Shown here: positions 1,548 to 41,980 of the stretch, one piece after another
How the letters are laid out: every line of letters begins with the position of its first letter
How positions within the stretch are numbered: position 1 is the first letter of the stretch
Origin: a virus
Reading direction: 5' to 3' (one strand)
Virus record (IMG/VR): IMGVR_UViG_3300001533_001301
Location: 1-42,103 of that record
Length of the DNA stretch: 42,103 nucleotides
Program-made: the position numbers and the translations under genes
Notes under the pieces: model-generated
What the model was told of the DNA's origin: nothing
Database searches by the model: none
What the model saw: the letters and a program-made list of their open reading frames with translations, nothing else

Positions 1548-1575
1548 CGCAATTATAGAAAAGGAGGTGGCAATA

Positions 1576-1766: not shown

Positions 1767-2591
1767 ATGTGTGGCATAGTGGCGTGGTTTTCAAAATACG
1801 GAATAGAAAAAAGTGAAATCCTTCTTGCGGGAATTAACACGCAGGAAAGAGGGACAGACGGAGCAGGAATATGGACGCTTGAAAAAGGACTATCAAAAAC
1901 AAATAAAAACTTTTCTGAAAACTTTAACGGGTTCGCCGATAAACTGCCAGATAACTCCAAATTCGGCGTGTTACATAACAGGTGGAAAACTCACGGAATT
2001 AGCGCACTGGTAAATACCCACCCATTTCGTTCCCATGGGTGGGTTATGGTTCACAACGGAACAGTCACAAGGTTCAATGACTATTATAGTGCGAAAGATA
2101 TGCAAAAGTGGGCTGACAAAAAAAGACGTGGCAAAACTGACAGCGAAGAACTTTTTTACGCAATATTATTTTATATCATTGAAGAAAAAGTAAAAGTAAA
2201 AATAGCTGTTAATAGGGCGCTTGACAGTTTTCACGGAAACTATACAGTATTGCTTTTCAATGAAGAAAGAAAAGTATGTTACTTGTTTTCAAATTACTCA
2301 AGGTATCTTATAAAAAAAGCCAATAGAATGTGGTTCTTTTCCGAAAAATCCATTGCGGACGCAAGTATTGACACAAGAAAATATAAGGAAGTAAAAATTA
2401 AGGATAATGTAATATACTGCATTGACCTTGAAACGGTTGATATTGTCGGCTTGGGAAGACTGTTTAATGGCTCAATGGGATATACACGCTGTTACAGTTA
2501 TGTTCCAAGGGTTAGCACGGCAATTAAAGAAAAACCTTTAAAAAAAGTTTATCCTTCAAAACGATATAAAGGACAAGGACAGTTATGGTAA
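1767..2591 (+). CDS. class II glutamine amidotransferase (stand-alone, GlmS-type domain)
   Basis: A 274-residue Ntn-hydrolase that should release ammonia from glutamine with the N-terminal Cys2 after Met removal. Visible signature residues match the GlmS/PurF class: MCGIVAW at the start, R28-G29, H70-N-R72-W-x-T-H76-G, N83-T-H85-P, H96-N97-G98 and T124-D125-S-E127. The SIS synthase half of GlmS is absent, so ammonia must go to another protein or the enzyme acts as a transferase or amidase. It is three genes upstream of a predicted amidoligase, the most obvious partner. A second, diverged copy lies near the right edge on the opposite strand. Confidence 0.88.
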   Translation: MCGIVAWFSKYGIEKSEILLAGINTQERGTDGAGIWTLEKGLSKTNKNFSENFNGFADKLPDNSKFGVLHNRWKTHGISALVNTHPFRSHGWVMVHNGTVTRFNDYYSAKDMQKWADKKRRGKTDSEELFYAILFYIIEEKVKVKIAVNRALDSFHGNYTVLLFNEERKVCYLFSNYSRYLIKKANRMWFFSEKSIADASIDTRKYKEVKIKDNVIYCIDLETVDIVGLGRLFNGSMGYTRCYSYVPRVSTAIKEKPLKKVYPSKRYKGQGQLW

Positions 2592-3984: not shown

Positions 3985-4188
3985 ATGGGCGGTTGTTTTG
4001 GAAATCATCCAGTTGACAGATATCTTGAAAACCAGTTAAACAGGCACCTTGATGAGGAGGAAGAAGCAATTCAAAGGTGTGAGAAGTGCGTTCATTGCGA
4101 CGCTATAAACGATGTGAACAGCAAGGAATACAAAGAGTATTGTATGATATGCGAAAAAGGCGTGGATAAATACGAAGAAAAACCTTGA
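3985..4188 (+). CDS. small cysteine-rich phage protein
   Basis: A 67-residue protein starting MGGCFGN, a start I associate with small conserved phage proteins of unknown function. An acidic helix (about 10-30) is followed by C32-x2-C35-x2-C38 and C53-x2-C56, likely one zinc site. Its last bases contain the -35 box of the amidoligase promoter. Confidence 0.65.
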   Translation: MGGCFGNHPVDRYLENQLNRHLDEEEEAIQRCEKCVHCDAINDVNSKEYKEYCMICEKGVDKYEEKP

Positions 4189-4212
4189 CAAAATTTGACA
4201 ATGTTGTATAAT
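4185..4212 (+). promoter_or_regulatory. consensus sigma70 promoter for the amidoligase gene
   Basis: Perfect TTGACA and perfect TATAAT separated by 16 bp, overlapping the stop of the preceding gene. The expected start point is near 4219, giving a leader of about 20 nt with AGGAGG and the amidoligase ATG. I see no other fully consensus promoter in the left arm. Confidence 0.85.
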
Positions 4213-4239
4213 GTTTAATGAAATAAGGAGGTGGCAAAA

Positions 4240-5535
4240 ATGCCGTTTAACAGAAACAGGCTTCGGGCATTCGTTGAAGACAGAGACGTTCCGCAAACCA
4301 CAGAAGAAACATGTCGCGAAATACAGGATTACGCAAGGAGCGAGGGGATGTCATATAATCCCCCTTCACGAAATTTTATTTTGCGTTATCTTTCCGCAAG
4401 GGTTGGGCCTTATCGAAGGGAACGCATTACACCTGATGTGCTTCGGACTTTTAGGTATAACCCACAAGCAAACGACGCTAATTTAGATACCATAGACGCA
4501 ATGTATGAAATGGTAACCACCCCAAGAAATACAAGGGGAAACGCTCAAAACACAGCAAACAGCAACCGTAACAGCTCCACGGATGTTACAGAGTTTATGG
4601 AAAGACTGCGGGTGCTTACAAGCACAATCGCAATAAACAGAATAAAAACACAGGCTGAAAGAAATAACGCAGATTTAAGAGACAGACATTTTTCAGTGTT
4701 CATGGATAACATTGACACCATACGTTTCGGAATTGAAGTTGAAAAATGTGTCTCTGGCGAAAACATTCCGTCTGACATTCAGTATTTTCATTCTTATGGC
4801 AACACGGCATTAAAGACCGACTCCACTTGCGGAATTGAGTTTACAACTGGAACAGAAAGCGTGGAAAAAATAGGTATAATTCCAGAAATGCTTGAAGACA
4901 GTTTTAAATTTCGCAGGTTTAACGAAATTAACGGCACCTTCCCGCAAAGGATAGCTGGAATACATACGCACCTGTCAATAAAAATGGCAGACATAAGTGC
5001 TTTAAGGGAAACAATATTGCATAATTTGCAGAGCTTGTGTTTGTTTTTAAGCCCGTTTTTTGGGTGGGGAAGATTAAGAAACAGGCATATTCGCTGGAGC
5101 AATACAGATACAACAAACCATTATGCGATAGTGAACATAAGGAACAGCAACCTTTATGGACACTATGAAATAAGAGGCTTTGGTTCTGACGAAAATCCGT
5201 CGAGGATAGGAGACAAACTGAATTTATCGTTGCTCTTTCTTATGTGCGCTTTTGAAAAGAACATAATGAATGAAGTTTGCAGCGCTATTTCAGAAATAGC
5301 TCCCCATTCTTTTGACGTGGCAAATTCTTGCAACGTGCGTGACTTCATGCGGTGGAGAAAAAACAAACACGCCGTATATGAAAGATTTAAGAATGTTATG
5401 GCTTCAAAAGTTGACAGAGTTGTCCGAGACCCAAGATTGTCCAGATATGACACAACAGTCAATGCTCTTTTAGGGGCGAAACGAAGGTTAATTTCAACCA
5501 TTGACCAAGCCAACAGTTCAAACGGCGTATTTTAA
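4240..5535 (+). CDS. predicted amidoligase (glutamine synthetase-like COOH-NH2 ligase)
   Basis: A 431-residue protein. The catalytic part (about 150-345) carries the order of motifs I recognise for the Amidoligase_2 family: FGIEVE (163-168), DSTCGIEFTTG (194-204), GIHTHLS (240-246), and an Arg/Asn strand region ending HYEIRGFGS (308-316). These acidic, His and Arg residues correspond to metal, ATP and substrate sites of glutamine-synthetase-fold ligases, which use ATP to join a carboxylate to an amine. The N-terminal 150 residues look unrelated and helical, with a Asn/Ser/Thr-rich linker near 95-115. ATG chosen because AGGAGG is 8 nt upstream. Substrate unknown; a cell-wall peptide, protein side chain or small metabolite are all possible. 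Confidence 0.78.
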   Translation: MPFNRNRLRAFVEDRDVPQTTEETCREIQDYARSEGMSYNPPSRNFILRYLSARVGPYRRERITPDVLRTFRYNPQANDANLDTIDAMYEMVTTPRNTRGNAQNTANSNRNSSTDVTEFMERLRVLTSTIAINRIKTQAERNNADLRDRHFSVFMDNIDTIRFGIEVEKCVSGENIPSDIQYFHSYGNTALKTDSTCGIEFTTGTESVEKIGIIPEMLEDSFKFRRFNEINGTFPQRIAGIHTHLSIKMADISALRETILHNLQSLCLFLSPFFGWGRLRNRHIRWSNTDTTNHYAIVNIRNSNLYGHYEIRGFGSDENPSRIGDKLNLSLLFLMCAFEKNIMNEVCSAISEIAPHSFDVANSCNVRDFMRWRKNKHAVYERFKNVMASKVDRVVRDPRLSRYDTTVNALLGAKRRLISTIDQANSSNGVF

Positions 5536-11730: not shown

Positions 11731-12075
11731 ATGAAGGCAGAAACAGCAAGGGCATTACAGGCAATAGCTCAAAAAGTGGCAACGCTATATGGCAACCAAG
11801 ACAGAGAAAAAAATTACCACAAGGAAACATTCACTCTTGTGAAAATAAAGCCCCTGTCAGAACTTACGGCTCTCGGTATTTACATAAAAGATGTTACCAA
11901 CAAAGTTGCGTGCGTGTTCTTTTATTACATCGAGCCATACAAGGAATGGAGATACTTTATTCCAAAAGACAGCCACCTGCTGGGAATGCTTGCGTTTCCT
12001 GATGAAAAAAAGAAAGCGGAAGAATGGAACTATGAAAAGAACTTTGACAATGAAAAGGGAGGAGAATACGAATGA
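11731..12075 (+). CDS. hypothetical protein upstream of GGCT-like gene
   Basis: A 114-residue protein, central part beta-rich (FTLVKIKPLSEL, CVFFYYIEPYKEW, YFIPKDS). AAAGGAGGTG precedes its ATG. Its stop overlaps the cyclotransferase-like start (ATGA), so the two are co-translated and may work together. No family recognised. Confidence 0.6.
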   Translation: MKAETARALQAIAQKVATLYGNQDREKNYHKETFTLVKIKPLSELTALGIYIKDVTNKVACVFFYYIEPYKEWRYFIPKDSHLLGMLAFPDEKKKAEEWNYEKNFDNEKGGEYE

Positions 12076-12449
12076 TATTGTTTGTTTACGGAACATTAAG
12101 ACAAGGTGGAAGCAACAACAAAAGTTTTTTAAGCAATTCAAAGTATCTCGGCAAAGACAAGGTAAAAGACTTTGCGCTTTATTCCATTTATGGCTTACCA
12201 GTTATTATGCCAAAAAAGGACTGGAGCGTTGTTGTTGAGGTTTATGAAATTAACACACAAACACTTGAAGAAATTGATAGACTGGAAGGGACACCTTTCT
12301 TTTACAAAAGAAAGGAGGTTACATCCGTCGCAGGAAAAACAGGTTTCATTTATTACCAGGAAAATTCTGGCAATGAACAGGTCGAGGGACGTGTTCCAAT
12401 GGAACACGGGGACTGGAAGAAGTGGAGCAATGGAATAAGATTTACCTAA
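12072..12449 (+). CDS. gamma-glutamylcyclotransferase-like protein (GGCT/AIG2 fold)
   Basis: A 125-residue protein. The family hallmark YGTLRQG lies at 6-12, followed by a GLPV strand, the VVVEVYEI strand and D69-R-L-E72-G (IDRLEGTPFFYKR), where Glu72 is the expected catalytic acid. The length is normal for a single-domain member. These enzymes release 5-oxoproline from gamma-glutamyl amines or isopeptide-like groups. In the same genome as an amidoligase and class II amidotransferases, it is the natural candidate for trimming a gamma-glutamyl adduct; that link is inference, and it is 6.5 kb from the amidoligase. Confidence 0.85.
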   Translation: MILFVYGTLRQGGSNNKSFLSNSKYLGKDKVKDFALYSIYGLPVIMPKKDWSVVVEVYEINTQTLEEIDRLEGTPFFYKRKEVTSVAGKTGFIYYQENSGNEQVEGRVPMEHGDWKKWSNGIRFT

Positions 12450-24911: not shown

Positions 24912-25175
24912 TCACTCCTCTTTCATTGCCTCCTCTATCAACTGGTCGGGCGTTTTTTCCCCGAAAGGACCGTTGTTAAAGGGGTTGTGTTTTTTTGCAA
25001 ATTCCTCATTGCTCTTTGCGACGTCGAAATGGGCTTCTTTGCCCCTTACTATCTTTTTGAAATCTTCAAAATCTTTCATTGTTTCCTGCTGAATATTGCG
25101 CCTTATTCTTTCTTTTCTTTCCTGGTTTCTTAATGTCGCCCCGTGAATGTCTTCTTTTAGGTCTTCCATTGCCAT
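24912..25175 (-). CDS. small charged helical protein
   Basis: An 87-residue protein, strongly charged and helical, ending in PDQLIEEAMKEE. It sits between coat and adaptor genes. No family recognised; a head completion or assembly helper is possible. Confidence 0.55.
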   Translation of the reverse strand: MAMEDLKEDIHGATLRNQERKERIRRNIQQETMKDFEDFKKIVRGKEAHFDVAKSNEEFAKKHNPFNNGPFGEKTPDQLIEEAMKEE

Positions 25176-33960: not shown

Positions 33961-35660
33961 ATTTCTATTACCTCCTCCAGGTCTTTGTCATAAAACGTAT
34001 TGTCATCCGAGTCCTCTTGTTCCGTCTCTTGAAAAATTGTTTTCAAAGTTTCATTATCTTGTTTTAAATTATACTGGCTTTTATTACGTTTGTCAATAGA
34101 ATAATCCACATAGTCTTCAATTTCCATTCCATAAACATCAAGGATATAAGAGTTAACGTCAAGAAGGTCGTCGTGGTCCCCAAGCGGGAACTGGTCCATT
34201 TCGAGTTTCAACAATTTCATCATATCCATTCTGCGACCGTGTGAATGTGTTTCGTGCATTATGACAGAAGGGTATGTGAAGGTTTTATCCTGATAAAACG
34301 GTCTTAATTGAGCTATTCTTTGTTCTTTGTTTCGGTTGCGTGGTTTTATGTCCTCAAGTATCTGAACGTCGTGGGTTATTTTTCCTTCAGATTTCCAGCG
34401 GGACAGTTCCCTTTTTGCGTAATTGATTAGGTGTATCTGCTCTGCTGCGTCCTCAATGTGAATAAACCGAGCCATAGGAAACCCTATAGCCGCTTTAAAT
34501 ACAACCTCACAGAGGGCTTGAGTGTCCACCTGGTCTTTAAACATATCCAGTATTATGATTTTATTTCTCCACCTGCCCACAACCACATAGGCGGCACTAT
34601 CGTTCCACTGATTATCTTTTCCAGAAGCTGGGTCCATTATAATTTCAACATCCCGAACTTCCCGTATCATAACCTTTGCAGGGTCATAAAACTCAAGCCA
34701 CTGATAATTAAGGGGCTTGTTCTTGCTTACCCTTGGTATATTAAGCCAGTTGCACCAGAACAAATATTCATTCTTTTTTTCTTTTTTCTTAAGAATTTCT
34801 TTGGTATAAAAGGTTGGCATTATAGCATGTCCCTCATCCCAAAGGTGGTCAAGGTCCTTGTATCCCTCCCAAGCGCTGCGTTTATACACGAGATACTCGC
34901 CGCCGCTGTCGTAATTGTCATTGTCCAATATGTCTATGTAAAGGTCGTCAAAATGCCATATTGTGCCAAGAACAATAACTTCCCCGTCTGGCTTAAGCAA
35001 GCTATCAACGGCTTCATCAAAAGCTTCCTTCACTTTTAAGCGTTGAGACAATTCCTTTGCGTTTTTACGGGTAACGACATCATCAAAAATTATAAGGTCA
35101 AAATGCTTTGAAGTTACCGCCTCGTCCACGCCTGATGTTTCGACTGTATATGTGTTGTCTATTTGGTTTCGTTCCGCCTGGCGAACCAATATTTCAGATT
35201 TGTTCCACACTCTGGAACCCTCAAAAGAACCAAACCTGCGGACAAAGCGTGGGTGGTTAGCGAGTATGTTTCTTATTGGGGCAAGCATGCCTTTTGCCTT
35301 GTCCCTCAACCCAGAATATAAAAGTATTTTTATATTGGGGTCTTTGACTATGCGCCACGGGACATAGGATATATTTGAAATAGATGTTTTAAAATGTCCC
35401 CTTGGCATAAGCCCAATCTTTTTTTTATGTGTTGGGTCCATGATAAAGTCGCAGAACTCACGGTGAAGCGGCTCATATAGGTCTCTGAACCCAAGCATTT
35501 TTGCCATTTTATACAAGTCTTTGTCTGCCTCAAGGTCAAGGCATACTTCCTCAAGTTGTTTATATCTATACCTGTGCTTATAATAAGCCCTTAAAAACTT
35601 GCTTTTATCAAAAGTTCCGTTGGGTTTAAGAAACTGTGCTGGTATCGTTGAGTTGGTCAT
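33957..35660 (-). CDS. terminase large subunit
   Basis: A 567-residue packaging motor. Walker A-like PRGHFKT (86-92), Walker B LIIFDD (189-194) and the nuclease acids D343 (IMDPASG), E403 (IHIED) and the late HDDLLDV are in correct order for TerL ATPase plus RNase H-like nuclease. ATG is chosen because GAGGACG sits before it; two earlier in-frame starts are not well supported. It follows a small terminase-like gene, with which it overlaps by 35 bases. Confidence 0.85.
   Translation of the reverse strand: MTNSTIPAQFLKPNGTFDKSKFLRAYYKHRYRYKQLEEVCLDLEADKDLYKMAKMLGFRDLYEPLHREFCDFIMDPTHKKKIGLMPRGHFKTSISNISYVPWRIVKDPNIKILLYSGLRDKAKGMLAPIRNILANHPRFVRRFGSFEGSRVWNKSEILVRQAERNQIDNTYTVETSGVDEAVTSKHFDLIIFDDVVTRKNAKELSQRLKVKEAFDEAVDSLLKPDGEVIVLGTIWHFDDLYIDILDNDNYDSGGEYLVYKRSAWEGYKDLDHLWDEGHAIMPTFYTKEILKKKEKKNEYLFWCNWLNIPRVSKNKPLNYQWLEFYDPAKVMIREVRDVEIIMDPASGKDNQWNDSAAYVVVGRWRNKIIILDMFKDQVDTQALCEVVFKAAIGFPMARFIHIEDAAEQIHLINYAKRELSRWKSEGKITHDVQILEDIKPRNRNKEQRIAQLRPFYQDKTFTYPSVIMHETHSHGRRMDMMKLLKLEMDQFPLGDHDDLLDVNSYILDVYGMEIEDYVDYSIDKRNKSQYNLKQDNETLKTIFQETEQEDSDDNTFYDKDLEEVIEI
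34068..34096 (-). promoter_or_regulatory. consensus sigma70 promoter inside terminase 3' end
   Basis: On the minus strand perfect TTGACA and TATAAT are separated by exactly 17 bp, within the last 140 bases of the terminase gene. It would express the membrane, secreted and portal genes downstream independently of the terminase. Confidence 0.8.
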
Positions 35661-36312
35661 CGTCCTCGTCCTCATTCCTTGGGACAACCTCTGCGACGGG
35701 AATGTCTCCTTTTTTCTTCATTCTCATTTCAACATATTCATCTGACGGGAGGTTTATGTCGTGTTTCTTTGCGAAATCCTCCATTTGTTTCATGTCTCCA
35801 CGGAGTCCTTTCATTTCAACAAGTATTTTTTCATTAGTGGCGTCTTTAAGTCGTCCTGCGATTGCGACGTTCTCCGTGGATTTATCTTCCGCCAGGCGCT
35901 TTTTATCAAACAACGTACCGTATGCGATAACGGTGTCCTTAAGTGAGGCTTTTTTAACTTTCTCTGCAGTAATACCCTTTTCCATAATCAGGTCCATTTT
36001 GTCCTGTATTTTTATGGCTTCCGTATTTGCCTTTACCATTGCCTCTTTTTTTTCAGCCTTAAGGAGTTTTGACTGTTCTCTGAACACACGAACGATTTTA
36101 TTAAATTCCGTTTGATTTATTTGCATTTCAGGGGGGAGTAATCCGTTTATTTCATCAATAGCCTTTTTGCCCTTTTTTCCTTCCTTTACAACCTGATACG
36201 TTGTCATAAAGACCTTATATTTTTCCGTGCTATTTCTTGCCAACCTATTTATTTCATCAATTTCATCAGCCGAAATATCTGTTGTGGCAACTGGCATAAC
36301 ATCCTCTGTCAT
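35626..36312 (-). CDS. putative terminase small subunit
   Basis: A 228-residue protein, helical with several Lys/Glu coiled-coil segments and an acidic tail. An N-terminal half with 'DEIDEINRLARNSTEKYKVFMTTYQVV' and 'MQINQTEFNKIVRVFREQ' could be a DNA-binding helix-turn-helix. Position directly before TerL, as first gene of the late arm, supports small terminase; sequence recognition is weak. The ATG follows AGGAGGTGA; an upstream in-frame start has none. Confidence 0.6.
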   Translation of the reverse strand: MTEDVMPVATTDISADEIDEINRLARNSTEKYKVFMTTYQVVKEGKKGKKAIDEINGLLPPEMQINQTEFNKIVRVFREQSKLLKAEKKEAMVKANTEAIKIQDKMDLIMEKGITAEKVKKASLKDTVIAYGTLFDKKRLAEDKSTENVAIAGRLKDATNEKILVEMKGLRGDMKQMEDFAKKHDINLPSDEYVEMRMKKKGDIPVAEVVPRNEDEDDDQLNDTSTVS

Positions 36313-36332
36313 ATTGCTCACCTCCTGGTGCA

Positions 36333-36361
36333 AGTATACACAACACAATTTCACTTGTCAA
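36333..36361 (-). promoter_or_regulatory. late-arm sigma70 promoter
   Basis: On the minus strand TTGACA, 17 bp, TATACT (5 of 6). The start would be near 36326, only about 14 nt before the small terminase ATG but including its AGGAGG. Its -35 box overlaps the -35 of an oppositely directed promoter. Confidence 0.8.
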
Positions 36362-36383
36362 AACAATTTTTTTATTGTATGCT
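36355..36383 (+). promoter_or_regulatory. divergent promoter for candidate small RNA
   Basis: TTGTCA (5 of 6) and TATGCT (4 of 6) are 17 bp apart. The -35 shares bases with the leftward late promoter, giving a back-to-back arrangement in which polymerases would exclude each other. Confidence 0.5.
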
Positions 36384-36389
36384 TGTATT

Positions 36390-36458
36390 GCCAACCGAGA
36401 AATTGCCACCTCGGTAAAGCCTGGGGGCTTTGGTTGCCCGACCGAAGCCCCCTTTTTT
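36390..36458 (+). ncRNA. candidate small RNA of about 70 nt
   Basis: Downstream of the divergent promoter there is no gene, but there are two hairpins: ACCGAG/CTCGGT at 36396-36417 and a strong 12-bp-class GC stem GGGGGCTT...AAGCCCCC at 36423-36452 followed by TTTTTT. The second is a textbook intrinsic terminator with nothing else to terminate. I infer a short structured RNA. It lies beside the terminase genes. No known RNA family is recognised. Confidence 0.5.
36423..36458 (+). terminator. rho-independent terminator
   Basis: GC-rich stem (GGGGGCTTTGGT with ACCGAAGCCCCC, one mismatch) and a run of six T. Clearest intrinsic terminator on the plus strand. It also insulates the rightward small-gene block from upstream transcription. 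Confidence 0.85.
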
Positions 36459-36636
36459 ATTTAACTCGGCAAAGAAAGAAAAGAAAGAAGCAAAGAAAAG
36501 AAAGAAACAAATACAAATACAAAAACAAAGACAGTATATATATAGTCGCTATTTTGACTTTTTTTTCCGTTTATCGGCGTTTATCGGCATTTATCGTTCG
36601 TTTTCAGCTTTTTTTACAGGGTTTTGAAAAATCATC

Positions 36637-36665
36637 TTGACAATCATAAAACTTCATGGCATAAT
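36637..36665 (+). promoter_or_regulatory. sigma70 promoter for right-arm small-gene block
   Basis: TTGACA, 17 bp, CATAAT (5 of 6). Start expected near 36672, about 27 nt before the first ATG and including GGAGG. Confidence 0.8.
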
Positions 36666-36698
36666 GATAAACGTGATAAAGAATGGAGGTGGCACTCA

Positions 36699-36887
36699 AT
36701 GGAAAAACCAAGCGTTGCGACAGTGCTCGTTAAATTCAAACAGCTTCAAAAGAAACATCCAAAAAAGAACTGGAGGCACTTATGTGCTTTATTGTCTTTT
36801 GAGCTTGAATACGATTACGAACACATAAAAACAACAATATTATTTTATTCAGAAGTCCACATTCCAACAAGTAAGGAGGGTTTATGA
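36699..36887 (+). CDS. hypothetical small protein, first gene of right block
   Basis: A 62-residue protein, helical and basic in the first half (ATVLVKFKQLQKKHPKKNW). GGAGG lies 9 nt before this ATG, which is just downstream of the promoter. Its stop overlaps the next start. No family recognised. Confidence 0.6.
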   Translation: MEKPSVATVLVKFKQLQKKHPKKNWRHLCALLSFELEYDYEHIKTTILFYSEVHIPTSKEGL

Positions 36888-37582: not shown

Positions 37583-38101
37583 GTGAAAATCAGCGTAAAA
37601 GAAATTAGAAAGCATAAGCCCTGCTATGACCCTTGCGAGATAGAGGGCATAGAGGCAGATACGGAAATGAGTTTGTTGGAGTGGATGCGGTATAGGGCGG
37701 ATAAAGTATCTGACAAAGACAAGATTTGGTTGTTTGATAGGTTTGCAACAAGTGAAGTAAGAAAAGAATTTTGTATCTGGTGCATGAAAAGATGCAAGAC
37801 GGAAAACAAAGAAATAAAAGAATATCAAAAGGCGGTTGAGAAATATCTTGACGGCAAAATAACAAAAAAAGAACTTGATAAAGTTAACAGGACAGCTAAC
37901 AGGGCGGCATACAGGACGGCTGACTGGGCGGCATACAGGACGGCAGACAGGGCGGCTTACAGTGTGGCTAACAGGTCGGCATACTGGGCGGCAGACAGGT
38001 CGGCATACTGGGCGGCATACTGGGCGTCATACAGTGCGGCAAAGCGCAAAAAGCAGGTTGCAAAAATAATTGAGTTGCTTCAACAAGAAGTGAAAAAATG
38101 A
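37583..38101 (+). CDS. protein with Ala-Ala-Tyr repeat helix
   Basis: A 172-residue protein. The N-terminal 100 residues include CYDPC and CIWCMKRC cysteine pairs, possibly zinc-binding. Residues about 103-152 are a degenerate four/eight-residue repeat (RAAYRTAD, WAAYRTAD, RSAYWAAD) that should form a long amphipathic helix with Tyr/Trp on one face. The C-terminus is basic. The GTG start is set by spacing from AGGAGG. No family recognised; similar Ala-rich repeats occur in phage proteins of unknown function. Confidence 0.6.
   Translation: MKISVKEIRKHKPCYDPCEIEGIEADTEMSLLEWMRYRADKVSDKDKIWLFDRFATSEVRKEFCIWCMKRCKTENKEIKEYQKAVEKYLDGKITKKELDKVNRTANRAAYRTADWAAYRTADRAAYSVANRSAYWAADRSAYWAAYWASYSAAKRKKQVAKIIELLQQEVKK
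37888..38042 (+). repeat. degenerate 12-bp coding repeats
   Basis: About a dozen units close to GGCGGCATACAG or GGCGGCAGACAGG encode the Ala-Ala-Tyr/Asp repeat. The units are alike at DNA level as well, indicating expansion by slippage. Confidence 0.7.
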
Positions 38102-41040: not shown

Positions 41041-41110
41041 CCCTTCCTTTTTTTATTTTTTATTTTGTAACTTTGCCCTTCCTTTTTTTATTTTTTATTT
41101 TGTAACTTTG
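41041..41110. repeat. perfect 35-bp tandem duplication at the gene end
   Basis: Two identical 35-bp copies of a T-rich sequence. The copy nearer the gene contains its last codons (KLQNKK) and stop; the outer copy repeats them untranslated. This is a duplicated 3' end. Confidence 0.85.
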
Positions 41111-41954
41111 CGTATTCTGTTGCGACACCATCCACTTTCGTCGGCAGTTTCCCGTTTTTTACCCACCTTTTTGGCAAGTCAATATATTGACCGCCGACGT
41201 TAACGCTGACTGTCTTTTTTTCCTCTCCCTTTAATTTTTTTTCTGCCTCTTTGTTCCAGTTGTTCCAGTTGTCCCAGCCTTTTGACGTCGTGATGACTTT
41301 TTCTCGCCTCAGCGTGAATATATATTTTACCCCGTCCGCTGTTAGCTCAAAAACTTTACGATATTTTACAGGTTTCACAGTATTATTGCAATAATACTGT
41401 GAAAGATTATAGCTTAAATCTTTTGAGGCTATGAAACAGCCCCTTGCGGATTTGTGCAAATACATGTTGTTATTGTTATGGACACCGTAAATTTTACCCG
41501 TTGTCCGGTCTAATAACAAGACCGCAAACCCTTCAGACTTTTCGACAGATTTTTTTAATAACGCAGAAATTGAAAAACCTTGCCTATAGTCTTTTGCCAT
41601 TTTCTCAAAAAAGATTTTACTGTCTGATTTTTTGTCATCGTTGCCGTATTTCACAAAAATGCCATTGTGGACGCCGTAAAGAGTATCCGTTATCGCAAAC
41701 GGGTGTATATTTGTGTTGTCAATAACCCCGTCCGTCGCCATGCGTCCATGACAGAGCCCTGTCTTTCCTGCTTCTTTGTTGTTAAGAAGTTTCTTGAAAA
41801 AATTATCTGTGTAAAGTTCTTTAATTTTTATTGTTTCTGACACAACGCCAAGCCCGTCTTTCCCCCCCAAATTATACATTGACGTAATAAGCGACGCCAA
41901 AAATGAAACGCTTTTTTCCTTGTGATGATTTTTCCAGCCGATTAAAAAGCACAT
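41088..41954 (-). CDS. second class II glutamine amidotransferase-like protein
   Basis: A 288-residue protein. Cys2 (MCFLIGW), H69-G-R71-M-A-T, N82-I-H84-P-F, H96-N97-G98 and S110-D111 reproduce the class II glutaminase signature of the left-arm protein. The Arg of the usual RG-x-DG motif is not seen (GKDG near 31-34), so it has diverged or uses different glutamine contacts. The C-terminal 80 residues differ from those of the first copy. AAGGAAGGTGG precedes its ATG. Its own terminator and isolated leftward orientation suggest separate control from the left-arm module. Confidence 0.82.
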   Translation of the reverse strand: MCFLIGWKNHHKEKSVSFLASLITSMYNLGGKDGLGVVSETIKIKELYTDNFFKKLLNNKEAGKTGLCHGRMATDGVIDNTNIHPFAITDTLYGVHNGIFVKYGNDDKKSDSKIFFEKMAKDYRQGFSISALLKKSVEKSEGFAVLLLDRTTGKIYGVHNNNNMYLHKSARGCFIASKDLSYNLSQYYCNNTVKPVKYRKVFELTADGVKYIFTLRREKVITTSKGWDNWNNWNKEAEKKLKGEEKKTVSVNVGGQYIDLPKRWVKNGKLPTKVDGVATEYAKLQNKK

Positions 41955-41980
41955 ATTGCCACCTTCCTTTTTTGTTTTTT

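Follow-up and report, generated by a model that had tools for sequence, protein, structure and literature searches.

The window analyzed here is the entire 42,103-base stretch of a virus record (IMGVR_UViG_3300001533_001301) from an uncultured phage. Plus-strand genes occupy 0.4 to 12.4 kb and 36.7 to ca. 40.2 kb; those on the minus strand extend through the block between 36.3 and 12.9 kb, with one more at 41.95 to 41.09 kb. The sign of the GC skew flips near the same points as the gene direction. Given that the minus-strand block carries the large terminase (phrog_38; E value, 8e-63), portal, and capsid genes, it was taken as the late arm. The candidate locus lies where the two directions diverge, in the gap that separates the first late gene (35626-36312, minus strand) from the first early gene (36699-36887, plus strand). 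The region from the terminator of the predicted RNA to the early promoter (36465-36600) holds a purine-rich AT tract, TATATATATAG, and three repeats at 10-bp spacing recognized in the sequence (TTTATCGGC, TTTATCGGC, and TTTATCGTT; 36570-36598), which together are a candidate operator or replication origin.

Promoters of the divergent gap

Promoters were scored as the number of matches out of 12 to a sigma-70-type consensus and ranked over the window with a weight matrix. Both the late promoter (TTGACA-17-TATACT; 36361-36333, minus strand; 11/12, weight-matrix rank 4 in the window) and the early promoter (TTGACA-17-CATAAT with TG; 36637-36665, plus strand; 11/12) were within the top five sigma-70-type sites of the window. 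A candidate small-RNA promoter (TTGTCA-17-TATGCT; 36355-36383, plus strand) backs onto the late promoter, has the -35 in common with it, and reached a moderate score of 9/12 and weight-matrix rank 26 of all sites. Because TTGACAA is a near-palindrome whose reverse complement is TTGTCAA, the -35 on the plus strand comes free. Genome-wide, 0.47% of the 15-nt slots scored at least as high as the plus-strand pair; given the -35, the chance of a -10 as good as TATGCT was 1.7% of places, or 4.3% of places that are AT rich. A back-side -10 of this quality was absent at all five other promoters of the window with TTGACAA and a fair-to-perfect -10. These values make a plus-strand promoter plausible, above chance and weaker than the late promoter.

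The predicted late transcript starts at ca. 36326 (minus strand), which places its Shine-Dalgarno sequence at the extreme 5' end, within a leader of ca. 14 nt (region 36310-36333). Three promoters matching the sigma-70 consensus at 12/12 positions are found within the arms (34096-34068 and 27279-27251, minus strand; 4185-4212, plus strand), and the late arm may therefore be served by more than one promoter of the host type, possibly several.

A predicted short RNA closed by a strong terminator

The predicted RNA of ca. 70 nt (36390-36458, plus strand) would start at about G36390, 7 nt past the -10, and end at the T tract. Fold prediction placed two hairpins in it, namely, hairpin 1 (36394-36415, plus strand), with a 6-bp stem (ACCGAG/CTCGGT) and a 10-nt loop (AAATTGCCAC), and an intrinsic terminator (36423-36458, plus strand) with a 13-bp stem, the loop GCCC, and T6. 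The predicted fold of both hairpins together reached -33.3 kcal/mol (z, -5.1) and that of the terminator by itself -25 kcal/mol (z, -5.8). Hairpin 1 alone is less certain, since its z value with flanks was only -2.35; its loop, AAAUUGCCAC, stayed single stranded across all the folds tried. The initial annotation had described a promoter pair sharing the late -35 and two hairpins, the second with a T6 tail, and both these elements and their coordinates were correct.

Only two hairpins of the 42-kb window are strong and of the terminator type, this terminator and a second one, with a T tract (41026-40992, minus strand), that lies just 3' of an ordinary gene (41088-41954). Upstream of the terminator at 36423-36458, the plus strand holds antisense of the late genes only and no plus-strand gene needing a terminator, and the strength of this hairpin is thus hard to explain unless transcription starts nearby on that strand. 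The statement that the locus has no coding sequence held in that we found no coding gene led by a ribosome-binding site; however, mechanical open reading frames do cross the region (36227-36640 and 36430-36627, plus strand), and a ribosome-binding site was absent for the one checked, 36430-36627. Given the near-unique terminator, the lack of a plus-strand gene needing it, the plausible promoter, and the lack of a gene led by a ribosome-binding site, the locus probably makes an RNA of ca. 70 nt from near G36390, and the terminated transcript put forward initially is well supported as a prediction. Elsewhere in the window, a pair of strong hairpins that lack a T tract (25260-25185, minus strand), directly 3' of the capsid gene and ahead of the gene at 24912-25175, form its most stable 70-nt stretch (-36.1 kcal/mol; z, -7.2).

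Loop complementarity to ribosome-binding sites

Hairpin 1 contains a candidate seed, ATTGCCACCTC (36402-36412, plus strand), with complementarity to ribosome-binding sites of the phage. UUGCCACCUC, which is complementary to GAGGUGGCAA, spans the last seven bases of the loop and the three that follow, and this combination of loop and stem shows complementarity of 9 to 11 nt to the ribosome-binding site of each of four phage genes. The candidate targets are the first early gene (9 nt; 36686-36694, plus strand), whose site carries GAGGTGGCA, the gene at 1576-1764 (11 nt; 1564-1574, plus strand), the gene at 4240-5535 (10 nt; 4228-4237, plus strand), and the glutamine amidotransferase (GATase)-like gene at 41088-41954 (10 nt; 41955-41964, minus strand). 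Counting both strands, GGTGGCAA occurs four times in the window, at the ribosome-binding sites of genes 1576, 4240, and 41954 (minus strand) and opposite the hairpin 1 loop. Predicted seed duplexes at the four sites ranged from -17 to -21 kcal/mol, every one of them stronger than that of the 16S anti-Shine-Dalgarno tail on the same site, and two of the four candidate target leaders were predicted to pair partly in their own folds.

The mean of the best four duplexes was matched by none of 2,000 shuffled seeds. Among dinucleotide shuffles, a contiguous 10-nt complement to three genes was found in 0.05% and a 9-nt complement to four genes in 0.3%, and the corresponding fractions of control windows drawn from this genome were 1.0% and 3.0%. 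The seed includes the generic anti-Shine-Dalgarno core CACCTC, and with this core held fixed, 1.5% of the shuffles did as well. The chance level of the match, found post hoc, ranged from 0.0005 to 0.03, depending on the control used. We regard these statistics as moderate, for a test chosen with the sequence already seen. The complementarity provides a more specific lead than the three roles suggested in the initial annotation (packaging, antitermination of the late arm, and host-directed regulation).

The best mechanism that we can propose for the locus is antisense repression, with the RNA blocking ribosome binding, and we put its probability at about one in three because of the moderate statistics and the post hoc choice of the test. 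Under this mechanism, host RNA polymerase of the sigma-70 type would transcribe the ca. 70-nt noncoding RNA from the promoter backing onto the late promoter. The RNA lies outside both predicted transcripts, the late and the early, and would therefore act in trans, with the unpaired loop of hairpin 1 (UUGCCAC, running into CUC) base pairing with the ribosome-binding sites of a few genes of the phage (the first early gene, at 36699, as well as those at 1576, 4240, and 41954, the last on the minus strand). This pairing would block ribosome binding and help to lower early functions. The analysis shows the sequence, the folds, and the complementarity, and we infer transcription, pairing, repression, and timing. 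Considerably more doubtful is the complete scheme, in which a trans-acting small RNA made on the back side of the late promoter, with an anti-Shine-Dalgarno loop and a gene-specific extension, would silence the first early gene and the genes in or beside a GATase module, tying the early-to-late switch to translation control.

Small RNAs from phages are an already known kind of molecule; to our knowledge, few of them have proven targets. If confirmed, the present locus would be a compact case of a divergent early/late promoter region that is also the source of a short RNA acting on translation of the early side, and the hypothesis offers four named target sites and predictions at the level of single bases.

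Alternative readings and comparison with known systems

Transcriptional insulation is nearly as likely as antisense repression. Here, the terminator would halt back-side transcription from the late promoter region, or antisense transcription of the late arm, ahead of the repeats and the early promoter, and the RNA would be a by-product lacking targets. No other element of the locus comes near the terminator in strength, the plus-strand promoter is weaker than the late promoter with which it has the -35 in common, and divergent transcription is common at bacterial promoters, involving 19% of Escherichia coli RNAs in one study via a shared -10 (PMC12825309). As in those bidirectional promoters, one stretch of DNA would serve both strands, although there the -10 is shared and the starts are 10 to 23 bp apart (PMC12825309), whereas in the present case the common element is the -35 and ca. 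64 bp separate the predicted starts. What insulation leaves unaccounted for are hairpin 1 and the match of its loop to ribosome-binding sites.

It is rather unlikely that the locus is an origin-linked transcription unit similar to lambda pO/oop, in which transcription by a replication origin would set initiation and the RNA itself would be secondary. The purine-rich AT tract, TATATATATA, and the three repeats (TTTATCGGC/TTTATCGGC/TTTATCGTT) at 10-bp spacing adjoin the RNA, the cumulative GC-skew minimum falls at the locus, and lambda pO affects replication from an adjacent origin (PMC3985674). However, the GC skew tracks gene direction and is no proof of an origin, the repeats could equally be operators, the replication genes are located elsewhere in the window (10.1 to 11.3 kb), and the RNA terminates ahead of the repeats. 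Lambda OOP is a small RNA with its promoter near the origin (PMC12197685, PMC3985674), and the present RNA would resemble it in being short, with its own predicted promoter, beside what we guess to be a replication origin; OOP is antisense to cII, whereas the present RNA overlaps no annotated gene on the opposite strand.

We give less credit to a reading of the RNA as an attenuated leader, belonging to a second early transcript and subject to signal-dependent read-through. The RNA does read toward the early genes, and in an alternative fold, hairpin 1 and the terminator can pair through their left arms. Yet this fold is 15 kcal/mol worse than the terminated one (-18.3 versus -33.3 kcal/mol) and a strong promoter of the early genes' own lies downstream, which makes a conditional attenuator less likely; riboswitch families also gave no match in Rfam. 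Very improbable, finally, is a packaging RNA similar to phi29 pRNA or a put-like antiterminator RNA of the late arm, which has in its favor position only, adjoining the terminase genes, and the two hairpins. Both proposals came from the initial annotation, and neither found support, nor did the host-directed role. As a noncoding phage RNA near packaging genes, the candidate is similar to phi29 pRNA, but it lacks a match in sequence or structure (phi29 pRNA was absent from Rfam results up to an E value of 10), its second half is a terminator hairpin, and the terminase is of another type, the large subunit being an ordinary phrog_38 and not a phi29-type ATPase. Antitermination is disfavored because the RNA would need to be part of the late transcript, whereas it is on the other strand, directed away from that transcript, and closed by its own terminator.

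The antisense reading has its closest parallel in the small c4 RNA of phages P1 and P7, in which pairing sequences lie in loops and translation is blocked near a ribosome-binding site (PMC12197685). The likeness, through the loop complementary over 9 to 11 nt to four ribosome-binding sites, is one of mechanism and not of membership, given that the present RNA had no Rfam match even at E values of up to 10, carries a candidate promoter and a terminator of its own, and has more than one candidate target in place of ant. The tests made place it in neither the c4 nor the OOP family, and it may work like c4.

The Rfam search gave no family at the gathering score, and in the 501-base region searched at E values of up to 10, phi29 pRNA, C4, and other phage RNA families were all absent; the weak matches obtained (a MicC-like one with 21.8 bits versus a gathering score of 90, and others) were attributed to chance. 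No related locus was found in IMG/VR, in the bacterial and archaeal genome collection, or among phage and plasmid records, and the exact hairpin 1 was absent from all other viral or bacterial contigs searched. The pattern CCGAG-N10-CTCGGTAAAGCC retrieved three loci from IMG/VR, none with a terminator past the hairpin, and they were not considered relatives. An 85% match in an Elizabethkingia phage was discarded as an AT-rich stretch (E value, 0.1). Protein queries for relatives (the presumed small terminase, the large terminase and a core piece of it, the capsid protein, whole and in part, and the 4240 gene) returned two terminases only, at 46% and 39%. The larger of the two matching contigs was rejected as a relative on the grounds of no synteny, GC richness, and different neighbors; the second is a 4.3-kb contig, and the synteny comparison covered the larger one.

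Two of the candidate target sites touch GATase genes. The gene at 1576-1764 is directly 5' of a clear GATase gene (1767-2591, plus strand), and the product of 41088-41954 (minus strand) is GATase/GlmS-like by weak matches. A single phage thus carries two class II GATase-like genes together with a gamma-glutamylcyclotransferase-like gene (12072-12449, plus strand), which possibly form a module for the modification of small molecules or proteins. Gene 4240 appeared amidoligase-like by eye, an assignment that we do not adopt given no match to PF12224 and a single-sequence fold that was useless (pLDDT, 39). Among the early proteins, the one encoded at 37583-38101 has a repetitive C-terminal part (AAYRTADWAAYRTADRAAY...).
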